The position numbers and the translations under genes were made by a program. The notes beneath the pieces are model-generated. The model was given only the letters and a program-made list of their open reading frames with translations, was not told the origin of the DNA and did no database searches. From Chamaelirium japonicum (taxonomy: Eukaryota; Streptophyta; Magnoliopsida; Liliales; Melanthiaceae): 64,000 bases of DNA. Position 1 is the stretch's first letter; every line of letters begins with the position of its first letter. The DNA is taken from positions 34,876,910-34,940,909 of the forward strand of contig OX393549.1 in NCBI GenBank assembly GCA_947650365.1. Direction: 5' to 3'. Shown one piece after another: positions 37,330 to 56,322 of this stretch.

Positions 37330-37536
37330 TCATTTAACTTTCCTGAGCAATAGTCTGTACATTGGAGCTCCACGATCAACGACATGCTGCTCCCAATCGG
37401 ATCGAGCGCCAAATGGATTCTCCTTGATCCATCCCTCCTCATCGCCCCCATCCACGACAAGCTTACCCTTCCCGTGCATCATAAATTGCTCCCTCATCCT
37501 AGTGGCGACGGCCTTGATGTCTGATTGTAAGAAAAT
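37330..37536 (-). CDS. PGK-TrmB fusion gene, last exon
   Basis: After a GAAATTGCAG acceptor the exon reads IFLQSDIKAVATRMREQFMM and continues to KENPFGARSDWEQHVVDRGA and PMYRLLLRKVK, with a TGA at 37330-37332. The block QSD and the C-terminal NPFGxRSDWE are hallmarks of the TrmB family (tRNA guanine-N7 methyltransferase), the S/T-x-x-E element contributing to the substrate pocket. Phase 0 at its start fits the previous exon, which ends NGK. The 3' flank to 37078 is presumably 3' UTR, without a canonical AATAAA that I could place. Confidence 0.9.
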   Translation of the reverse strand: MFLQSDIKAVATRMREQFMMHGKGKLVVDGGDEEGWIKENPFGARSDWEQHVVDRGAPMYRLLLRKVK

Positions 37537-37624
37537 CTGCAATTTCATACCACCAGTACCTACTTATAACCAAATCTTCAAGTAAAATCTATATACTGTG
37601 TATGGTTCAGTATTGCAAACATGT

Positions 37625-37723
37625 TGTGTGTGTGTGTGTGTGTGTGATGTGTGTGTGTGTGTGTGAGAGAGAGAGAGAGAGAGAGAGAGAGAGAGAGAGA
37701 GAGAGAGAGAGAGAGAGAGAGAG
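37625..37723. repeat. (TG)n-(GA)n tract within an intron
   Basis: TG dinucleotides (with one AT break) are followed by GA dinucleotides, within the 230-bp last intron of the TrmB gene. Confidence 0.95.
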
Positions 37724-37767
37724 GAAGCAGAACTCTCCAGAAAGAAACACTTAATGATAAGGGATAC

Positions 37768-37866
37768 TTTTCCATTGGCTGTGAGCAGATCTATGATTGC
37801 TTCCACAAGTGTCCTCTGCACCATTCTCCATCTATGCTCTTCCCTGTTGAAGTCGGGATTTGGGCA
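37768..37866 (-). CDS. PGK-TrmB fusion gene, exon with the CPNPDF motif
   Basis: A TTCTCTATGTAG acceptor opens 33 codons: CPNPDFNREEHRWRMVQRTL then VEAIIDLLTANGK, closed by a GTATCC donor. CPNPDF occupies the position of the conserved P-D-P-W segment of bacterial TrmB, and the helix HRWRMVQRTLVEAI is typical of the plant relatives. Confidence 0.92.
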
Positions 37867-38230
37867 CTACATAGAGAATTTGGTTAGCTATAGATTCTGG
37901 ATATGGATTTCAAAAGTGATGGACAAGTGCACATTGCACTAACAGCTTAATTGAGGAGTTCATGGTGGCTGCAGGCAATGGCTTCATTATTTTACACTTG
38001 CTACGTATGCAGAGAATCCTCATATTAATGAGAAAACCAAGGGTTTAAAATCTTGATTGAAACAAAATGTTTCAGATTTTGTATTGGTCAAAAGAAAAAA
38101 GATCCCTAATCACATGGGGGTGAATCATTTTGCAGAAGACACATGCCCTTTTGCTTGTGTGTGTGTGTTTTAGGCCAAAATTTGGGACATGCCAAAACCA
38201 TTGCCAACCTGCTAAAAGTCCTTGGGATTC

Positions 38231-39135
38231 TTTTTTATTTTTTGAAGGATACATGCCTCGGTTTATTCAATAATCCGAATTTCGTTACAAATAACTTCTC
38301 GGACGCCCAAAGGTGTCGAGATAGAATCCCATGAGTGACATGAATGTCTTATGGATGACAGGCAAATTGGCTAGTGTGTGAGCTGCTACATTGGCCTTTC
38401 ATGGAGTATAGGAAAAGCTCGTAGCTGGATTTCGATTTGGTAAGGCATCTTGACTCTTGAATAGTCTTTGAAGTCTTTCTAATGCGCCATGATCGTTTCC
38501 CGGATTGTCGATGAGATCTACGATGGTTTAGCATCCCCTTCAATGATAAGATTTGTTATTCCAAGCTGTCCACCAAGAGATGTGCCTAATTTGAACGCCT
38601 CTGCTGTACCTCTGCCTTAAGAGGATTGTTAGAAACCACAAAGTCTGGAAGCACTTGAATAACTTGAGCATAGACAGAATGGACTGCGTATAACTTGAGC
38701 TCCAAGAATTGTGCCAATAAGAGATGATCTCGTTTTGTCGAATGCTCTTTGGGATCTACCCTTACATATGAACCAGAGGGTAGAGGTGAACTCAACAGAA
38801 CTATTTCCTGTCTTCTGATTCTGTAGCTAATGATCCAACCATTGTTGGATGGATTTCTCCCCACTGCTAGTGTTTAATCCCAAAGAGGAACCAAACCAAA
38901 CTGCTCCGACAAAAAAACAGGAAAATAATAAATGTTCAAGGGCCTCCTCCGTTTGACCACACTGAGGGCATATCGGACATGGATTCTCTTGACAAGAGCA
39001 ACTTTAGTGGAATCAATCTGATAGATTACGCCACAATAACATAATAATTTTTGGAGGAATGCTCTTAATCTTCCAGATGTTCTTCCATATGGGATTTTGG
39101 CGACTGCCAGTTGATGAAGAAGCTGACTCATCAAA
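38231..39135 (-). pseudogene. LINE 3' fragment (zinc-finger and RNase H region)
   Basis: The minus strand from 39135 reads pieces such as CPICPQCGQTEEALEHLLFS, the zinc-binding linker after a plant LINE reverse transcriptase, then degenerate RNase H-like sequence (LIIEGDAKPS). It ends in a short A-rich tail (minus strand, about 38243-38231). It is truncated at its 5' end and full of stops, within a PGK-TrmB intron. Confidence 0.75.
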
Positions 39136-39189
39136 TTGCTATCGGATGATTTTAGGCTAATTTTGACTTACACCCCCAAAATTATATGG

Positions 39190-53717: not shown

Positions 53718-53896
53718 TGTTAGAGTATGTAAATCCTTTATTAGTCTCTTTAGTCTGTTTTGGGTATGCTTACCCTTTGGTGACTATATCCTTTTGTACA
53801 GATATATATAGGGCCATTGCCCTAATGAGTATATCAAGGTTTTACTCCCAAAATCCATTTTTCCTCTTTTCCTCTTTGGATCTTATAAATCTATTA
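53718..53896 (+). repeat. 3' LTR of the copia element
   Basis: 179 bp, no difference from the 5' LTR seen by eye; followed by the target duplication AGTTG. Confidence 0.96.
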
Positions 53897-54521
53897 AGTT
53901 GCATAGGAAAGAATAAACATGTTGATTCTAGATTGAAGCGTGAAGAACCTAAGTGTGGAGTCTGTGGACAATAATATGTGGATTAGGATTGCTGAAATTC
54001 ATATTGGAGAACTGGGATTTTAAATTGAAATTCCTATGATGTTAGCATTGCGACAACCAAGCAGCAACACGTGTTGCAAAAAATATTTTGCTCCATGAGA
54101 AACAACAAATTCAACAAAATAGATTGCCACTGAGAGCCTGACAAGGTAATCAAGAATCCATATGTTAACCCCAAAATTTAACCAGAAAGTTCCATGTTAA
54201 AGGAGTGGAAGTAGTAAACATTATGTTATTGACGTCATAAAAAAATCAGCCGTAATCAAAATAACTTTACAAAAGATGAGCTGTCATTGTGAAGTTATGC
54301 CTTGATTTAATTAGGATGGTTTTAGTGATGTTCTTGATATTCTCTATCGATAAAGTTAGTAGATTGTTATATTGTTCCAAGTGTAACTTAATCAGGGGTC
54401 ATTGCGTTTCATGTCTATATCTGACATTATAAACCAGGAGGTCCATCATCTTCAATATATAGTATCAAGAACTACAAGGCGATAAAACGAATTCTGATAG
54501 AAATGTAGAAAAAAAAAGTAC

Positions 54522-54597
54522 CACTTCCAATATCCACTATTAAAGGAAGAGTTGGATCAGAAAAAATAGTAACCCAATCAAGCTCAAAGGGAAAGGC
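54522..54597 (-). CDS. PGK-TrmB fusion gene, junction exon (linker and SAM motif I)
   Basis: A 76-nt exon between a TTCTTGCAG acceptor and a GTACTT donor encodes AFPFELDWVTIFSDPTLPLI then VDIGSG (last Gly split). The first residues continue directly from the PGK-like exon (LPGVAALDR), and the last ones start methyltransferase motif I. This exon therefore joins the two domains. It lies 0.6 kb from the 3' LTR of the copia element. Confidence 0.9.
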
Positions 54598-55753
54598 CTG
54601 CAAGAAGAGAACAAAGAGCTAAGAAAGGAACAAAACTTCAACTAGCAAAATTAGTAACTATTTACATAGAAATATGAGAGATTCAGATTGAAGGTCTTTG
54701 TTAATGATTTAGTTGATAAGCAATCAAAAGGGTTAAGTACTTACCAAATGAATCTAGAGAGGAACCATCAGTTGCATAAATTAGTACCAAAGTGTACATT
54801 ATGCTCTATGTCATTATGAGGATCAAATGGTACAGAATTCATCAAAAATATAGTGTTCACCATGTGTTAAGATATATACAATAACAATCTATGATTATAT
54901 CTGCAACTTAGCTGATAGAGATCAAGGACAGAAGGTGGTGGGACACCGGTACCACACCACCGACTACATGCGTTTATAGCCGAAGGAGGATGACCCAACC
55001 ATTGTAGATCTGGCTTACAGACGGGTGATGGACTAGCCCATCACAGAGATGGGCTCGTGGGCTTTCACTTATCTTTATTTTGCTGCAGTTATTATCTTAA
55101 ATTCAGGTTAATTTAAATTTGGTATTTTAGTATAAGATTTTTTTTTGACCTTTGGAAGGATTGTAATCAATGTTTTAAAAAACGGAAGGTGGAAAGCAGA
55201 CGGTCAAGGGATTTCAAGGTGGAATAAATAAGGGAAGTGACAATCCAATATTTGAAAATATCTCAAGTTTCCTGCACCATGACAAGATTCTCTAAAATAT
55301 CACTAAATCAACTAAATAATGAAAACAGACAACATACTAAGGCAGGAGAATCTCTTTCAAAGCCTATACTAGGAAAGAAAGTAGCCTTGGACTATTTCAG
55401 TGAAAGATCCTCTAAGAAGCTTAGGAACTATGAAACAGGACTTGATTGCAGAGGCAATCAATTCCTTAACATTCATCTCACTGACACATCAGGTGGATTG
55501 CTCTTGTAGACTATCATATTTAAGGTCGATTAGCCGATGTAAGGTATGTCGTGAAACTATGGGATGACTCCAGATATGCAGTGTTTTGCTCCAATCACTT
55601 TTTCTCTCTCAACGATAAAATTGCCAATACATGCTAATTGATGAAGTTTGGAGGCAACGGCCAGTGACATTTGATTCATAATTACACTTAAAAAGTCTTG
55701 TATTCAGTCAGAACAACATGAGGTTAGGAAAAGTACAAGAAACTTATCACATT
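54598..55753. other. PGK-TrmB intron, no firm feature
   Basis: A GTAAGT donor-like site with an open codon run (minus strand, about 54752-54806) was considered as an exon but is not needed for phase. Otherwise AT-rich sequence. Confidence 0.4.
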
Positions 55754-55998
55754 GATATATATATATATATATATATATAGAGAGAGAGAGAGAGAGGAGA
55801 GAGAAATGATAAAATGCGGCGTGCGATGCGTGTGGTGTCGCACCGCAGCCATCTGATGCGCTGCTGCGTGCATTGCAAGCACCGCAGCGATGCATTAGAC
55901 GGCTGCGGTGCGACGCCGCACGCATCGCACGCCGCAGCCTAACACGCCTCATATATATATATATATATATATATATATATATATATATATATATATAT
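55754..55998. repeat. Palindromic element P4 flanked by (AT)n and (GA)n, copy 1
   Basis: The order is (AT)n 55754-55779, (GA)n 55780-55803, a GC-rich palindrome (AATGCGGCGTGCGATGCG near the left end, CGCATCGCACGCCGCAG near the right), then (AT)n 55951-55998. The reverse complement gives (AT)n-core-(TC)n-(AT)n, the same layout as the copy at 63.6-63.98 kb. Confidence 0.88.
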
Positions 55999-56073
55999 CC
56001 AAATTTGAATATATTCTTCAAACAATTATTAAAATCTGAAAGTACAATCATATAATTGAGTCTAGTTACATAC

Positions 56074-56322
56074 TCTATCTAAAGCTGCAACACCTGGCAG
56101 CTTTCTACCTTCAAGAAATTCCCACACAACTGATGCATTTTCAAACATTTTATCTGAAAGAAAACTTGATGTCCCTGCAACAGCCTTGCAGGCTGCATTC
56201 CCAACAATAGTTATATCACAACCATTTTTGCTTATTCTTTCAAGCATCAAAACCAATTCAGTTGCTCCATGGGTACTTTGTGCAAATGAACCAAATTTCA
56301 CAGGACCAATCCATAAGACTTT
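56074..56322 (-). CDS. PGK-TrmB fusion gene, phosphoglycerate-kinase-like exon
   Basis: After a TATTATTACAG acceptor, 83 codons read KVLWIGPVKFGSFAQSTHGA, TELVLMLERISKNGCDITIV, GNAACKAVAGTSSFLSDKMF and ENASVVWEFLEGRKLPGVAA then LDR, closed by GTATGT. Spacing and the closing LEGRKLPGVAAL match the end of phosphoglycerate kinase, but the nucleotide-binding motifs are gone: W-N-G-P is W-I-G-P, G-G-G-D is G-N-A-A-C, and S-T-G-G-G-A is N-A-S-V-V-W. The domain is thus expected to be catalytically dead. Upstream PGK exons are not found to 64000. Confidence 0.9.

Follow-up and report, generated by a model that had tools for sequence, protein, structure and literature searches.

Introduction

Joining of a phosphoglycerate kinase domain (PGK, PF00162) to a tRNA methyltransferase domain (PF02390) in a single protein was described by Foflonker and Blaby-Haas (2020, PMC7826186) under the name PGK4B. 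PGK4B is reported from land plants except Arabidopsis, with LOC_Os10g30550 as the rice gene, and is said to be the sole land-plant PGK-like protein outside the canonical subfamily; its function is called unknown, and a possible arsenic link is raised (PMC7826186). LOC_Os10g30550 is elsewhere listed both as "Phosphoglycerate kinase" (PMC5324284) and as "tRNA methyltransferase" (PMC4613210). A paper on the soybean PGK family gives proteins of up to 674 residues, a length that would suit the fusion; the words methyltransferase, tRNA and TrmB do not occur in the excerpts of that paper (PMC13259330). A search of open-licence papers, as far as excerpts show, gave nothing on loss of an active site in the fusion.

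Here we analyze a gene of this type in a 64,000-nucleotide stretch of the Chamaelirium japonicum genome (hereafter the window; C1:34876910-34940909 of a 1.52-Gb assembly). Judged by its domains, the gene is most likely the PGK4B of a land plant. As PGK4B is already in print, the PGK-TrmB architecture is not new, and the published protein also answers a question left by the original prediction of such a gene in the window, namely whether any other plant protein has both domains. In the present member, both halves lack key residues of their active sites. Viral contigs were also searched for proteins related to the fusion; seven stretches fit a pattern, and none of them was confirmed.

Results

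Seven minus-strand exons lie at 56322..37330 of the window. They have AG acceptors and GT donors (all six introns are GT-AG) and consistent phases, just as originally predicted, and their spliced frame runs for 280 residues to a stop codon without an internal stop. Exon A (56074..56322; phase 0 at both ends) encodes KVLWIGPVKF...LEGRKLPGVAALDR, the last 83 residues of the PGK-like part and all of that part that the window holds. Exon B (54522..54597), which has no ATG, takes the TrmB-like domain from its start to VDIGSG, and exon C (45600..45676) provides the S-adenosylmethionine (SAM)-binding part, NGLFLFKLARLW...LGLEINKK. Exons D (45477..45526) and E (40016..40100) encode LVNRCLDIVHESGLKN and YFISTNATSTFRSIVSSYPGDLILVSIQ, respectively. 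Exon F (37768..37866), encoding CPNPDFNREEHRWR..., carries Asn where the catalytic Asp would be expected, and the C-terminal exon G (37330..37536) includes the stop codon. Exons B to G match Methyltransf_4 at 1.8e-24 in a Pfam scan. By itself, exon A resembles the C-terminus of solved PGKs (phmmer against PDB, best E 3.5e-5) and reached no family in the Pfam scan; a case built on this one PGK match would have been thin.

The remainder of the PGK-like domain must be sought outside the window. When the minus strand of 56323-64000 was translated in its three frames, with stops written as X, and scanned against Pfam, retroelement families appeared and no PGK. Searching the genome with PF00162 gave 22 matches, 20 of them on C9, in canonical PGK genes, and two on C1, on the gene's strand and 13-14 kb beyond the end of the window. 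From this region three minus-strand PGK-like exons could be read (C1:34955868-34955601, C1:34955298-34954955 and C1:34954264-34953979), and a fourth, of 68 nt (C1:34945407-34945340, also minus), was chosen from a scan of AG..GT candidates in the right phase, where it scored 44 and the runner-up 14. These four further exons sit 4.4-15 kb past the window's end. The resulting 11-exon model spans about 41.6 kb and encodes 602 residues, with agreeing phases, canonical splice sites and neither stop nor frameshift. It matches PGK (PF00162) at 184.3 bits (cut-off 27; residues 26-371, profile positions 6-353 of 379) and, C-terminal to this in the same frame, Methyltransf_4 (PF02390) at 84.7 bits (cut-off 24; residues 423-595). 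With both scores well over their cut-offs, the pairing is far beyond chance, and the proposal of one gene with PGK-like and TrmB-like domains is supported. The two sets of exons would presumably share a single transcript.

To describe the kinase half we used 19 active-site positions defined from E. coli motifs. Human residues were matched to those of E. coli by motif, and this matching and the selection of the remaining positions follow general background on the family. The fusion keeps four of the 19 (D21, R62, K197 and G339 in E. coli numbering). The canonical gene C9a keeps 18 of the 19, and C9b has 10 of the 11 that are covered. Both arginines of the RIRA motif, the first of which is taken to correspond to human R38, are missing from the fusion, so that the count of four is the same with either; the counterparts of R38, K215 and K219, which in human PGK contact the transferred phosphate (PMC5594045, PMC6040698), are Ser, Asn and Lys. 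The half thus has homology to the phosphoglycerate kinase fold over the whole domain (113 of 323 aligned residues are identical to those of one canonical PGK) and lacks most of the residues by which an active PGK binds 3-phosphoglycerate and transfers the phosphoryl group. The junctions AI/IGG and CK/KVLWIGP split the fusion where the compared canonical C9 PGK is one exon; conversely, near AGFLL/ELDYL and after GTEV the canonical gene is split where the fusion is not. With exon junctions so different, the PGK half is not a recent copy of the compared C9 gene.

In the methyltransferase half, the residue aligned with the catalytic Asp (E. coli D144, Aquifex aeolicus D133) is Asn. The column was compared in two other TrmB genes of the genome (TRM8a-type and TRM8b-type; see below) and in a bacterial set, the best 80 of 561 loci, picked by patterns outside the catalytic motif and confirmed with TRM8b; each matched bacterial stretch was translated to read the residue. 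Asp is found in both plant genes and in every one of the 79 bacterial loci that reach this column, the remaining locus being truncated. CPNPDF-like motifs may also occur in annotated plant fusion proteins, which is a lead only. Other columns of E. coli TrmB at which the fusion differs are H151 (E), R154 (W) and T217 (S). The first two changes count for little, since human METTL1 also departs from the E. coli residues in the alignment (K and W). R155, D180 and E220 are kept, as is the SAM-binding glycine motif (DIGSGNG; E. coli G71, G73 and G75 columns). Against the TrmB equivalog model TIGR00091 (cut-off 112.65 bits), the fusion scores 82.3, TRM8b 115.1 and E. coli TrmB 251.9. According to a review, the D133A and D133N forms of A. 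aeolicus TrmB have lost all activity (PMC6320965). The E. coli D144A protein still binds tRNA, with an affinity 2.5-fold above that of the wild type (PMC10130221), which makes binding without methylation plausible for the fusion.

A diverged partial copy of exons F and G, including the intron between them, is present at C11:63204780-63204917 and its flank (L029 1255-1843), with 79.7% DNA identity to window positions 37487-38139. Its catalytic motif reads PNP too; the Asn is therefore not a recent single error.

Besides the fusion, the genome has at least two TrmB genes, which came up in a family search: a TRM8a-type gene on C7 (FPDPHFK) and a TRM8b-type gene on C2 (CPDPHFKKRHHKRR), the labels being assigned by motif and type. 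The number may be higher, because this search did not pick up the short exons of the fusion itself. The TRM8b-type gene (C2:62267125-62250874, minus strand) keeps PDPHFKKRHHKRR; 88 of its 196 residues aligned with the fusion are identical (45%), and all five introns inside the TrmB domain coincide between the two genes, both in alignment column and in phase. Shared introns are strong evidence, and on this comparison the TrmB half of the fusion is a paralogue of the TRM8b-type gene. A quick tree of 83 rows supports this kinship weakly: the fusion joins TRM8b with an SH-aLRT (Shimodaira-Hasegawa-like approximate likelihood ratio test) value of 86, which is not starred, and the two belong to a starred set of 27 rows, 22 of them Cyanobacteriota, that also holds the very long TRM8a outgroup row. 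Among the 80 bacterial loci, 23 of the best 25 have cyanobacterial titles, with E values from 7e-44 to 5e-29 as against 1e-20 for the next locus.

The introns of the gene are rich in retroelements. A long terminal repeat (LTR) retrotransposon at 48382..53896, on the plus strand and thus antisense to the gene, lies within the intron that separates exon B from exon C; its 179-bp LTRs show no differences, it is flanked by a 5-bp target duplication (AGTTG), it has a 1427-codon open frame at 49421-53704, and it is very young. Its look would suggest the label Copia. The intron ahead of exon A holds a Ty3-type element at 57972-60784, which is broken up among several frames and matches gag, zinc knuckle and chromodomain families. 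A plus-strand DUF4283 match broken over two frames (42497-45107) lies between exons D and E, and a minus-strand zf-RVT match (38347-39165) between exons E and F. A scan of 10 of the 25 long frames in 1-36000 gave a minus-strand retroelement piece with a zinc knuckle (12333-13328) and a plus-strand one with protease, reverse transcriptase, RNase H and integrase matches (15415-17936). ARAGORN calls a tRNA-Asn (anticodon att) at 36683-36763, in a repetitive stretch; the call is probably spurious.

Discussion

On balance, we consider it probable that this gene is a PGK4B fusion with a TrmB half paralogous to TRM8b, and that both halves are pseudoenzymes. Having lost most of the residues that hold 3-phosphoglycerate and transfer the phosphoryl group, the PGK half would be catalytically dead; the TrmB half, with its SAM-binding motif kept and its catalytic Asp replaced by Asn, would not methylate. 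We infer a scaffold or sensor that could bind SAM and possibly tRNA as well, the latter being left unmethylated. Its site of action is possibly an organelle. Here the residues part company with the suggestion of a moonlighting role in the original prediction, as moonlighting implies a working enzyme and it appears that neither half performs its usual reaction. The accompanying suggestion of a regulatory role, possibly in an organelle, is compatible with the data: the nearest bacterial relatives of TRM8b are mostly cyanobacterial, a kinship that hints at an organelle.

Several points weigh against the idea of a double pseudoenzyme. The losses were read in one genome and may be peculiar to this species. 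In the PGK alignment, the R38-region and E314 columns adjoin gaps. In the TrmB half, with the H151 and R154 differences being uninformative, only the change from Asp to Asn is telling, and the retained R155, D180 and E220 would suit an active enzyme. At the 5' end, 86 ATG-to-donor candidates for a first exon were listed over 34 kb of upstream sequence, of which 10 passed the filters; none stood out, and no transit peptide was assignable among them; an in-frame ATG ahead of the first PGK exon, with no intron between, is a possible alternative start.

The most serious alternative, although an unlikely one, is that the fusion is an active 7-methylguanosine (m7G) methyltransferase of tRNA or another RNA, with Asn working in a modified site and the PGK-like half serving as an RNA-binding or dimerisation module. 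Such an enzyme would be expected to keep the SAM motif and the three residues just named and to score well over the Methyltransf_4 cut-off, as the fusion does, and the review of the TrmB mutants states that the genes for anticodon m7G in chloroplast and mitochondrial tRNAs have not been identified (PMC6320965). However, it would have to work with a residue that none of the 79 informative relatives has, that abolishes activity when introduced into the A. aeolicus enzyme (PMC6320965), and in a domain that falls short of the TrmB equivalog cut-off. Decay of the gene in this species, of which the residue losses would be a mere reflection, is improbable: the large introns full of retroelements and the diverged exon F-G fragment on C11 might be taken as its signs, but 602 codons over 11 exons have been maintained with canonical splice sites and free of stops and frameshifts, and the C11 fragment carries the same PNP.

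Two further alternatives concern the PGK half and its attachment. By analogy with Chlamydomonas PGK3, whose mutants are arsenate-sensitive, this half might detoxify arsenate by PGK chemistry, a role proposed for PGK4 relatives by Foflonker and Blaby-Haas (PMC7826186). We regard this as very improbable for the present protein, in which 15 of the 19 active-site positions are changed, including the counterparts of human R38 and K215; the R38M change alone cuts the efficiency of human PGK1 about 10^8-fold (PMC6040698). Least probable of all is that two adjacent genes have been joined on paper, a PGK-like one ending after exon A and a TrmB-like one starting later. The unspliced frame past exon A does stop after three codons (VCN, then stop); yet the phase-0 donor and acceptor fit, exon B offers no ATG, and the published land-plant homologues are fusions (PMC7826186).

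If both halves are indeed dead as enzymes, the names "Phosphoglycerate kinase" and "tRNA methyltransferase" under which the rice gene is listed are misleading, the suggested arsenic-related PGK chemistry becomes unlikely, and the question shifts to what the protein binds. Three points go beyond the fusion as described: the intron positions common to the TrmB half and the TRM8b-type gene of the same genome, the Asn in the catalytic column of the TrmB half, and the changes at most of the inspected active-site positions of the PGK half. That this member has apparently lost both active sites is what deserves following. It is tempting to speculate, though we hold this much more tentatively, that land plants have conserved PGK4B as a double pseudoenzyme. 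Having kept SAM and tRNA binding, it would read the SAM level or the state of tRNA, perhaps within an organelle, and act either on translation or on TRM8b, its active paralogue.

How does this protein compare with its known relatives? PGK4B, as exemplified by rice LOC_Os10g30550, agrees with it in the identity and order of the two domains, and in being a single land-plant gene distinct from canonical PGK; the excerpts of the PGK4B paper do not mention active-site residues, and the likeness rests on the architecture described there (PMC7826186). Canonical PGKs, such as the C9 genes and E. coli Pgk, share homology with the fusion over the whole domain but differ at the 15 altered active-site positions and, where compared, in their exon junctions. 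The TRM8b-type TrmB of the same genome has the five intron positions and phases and 45% identity in common with it; unlike the fusion, TRM8b scores above the TrmB equivalog cut-off, and the exons identified for it encode no PGK domain. Finally, the bacterial bifunctional PGK/TPI fusions (NCBIfam NF010569) likewise join PGK to a second enzyme; however, their partner domain is unrelated, and the PGK half studied here matches NF010569 at 175 bits, far below the cut-off of 883.

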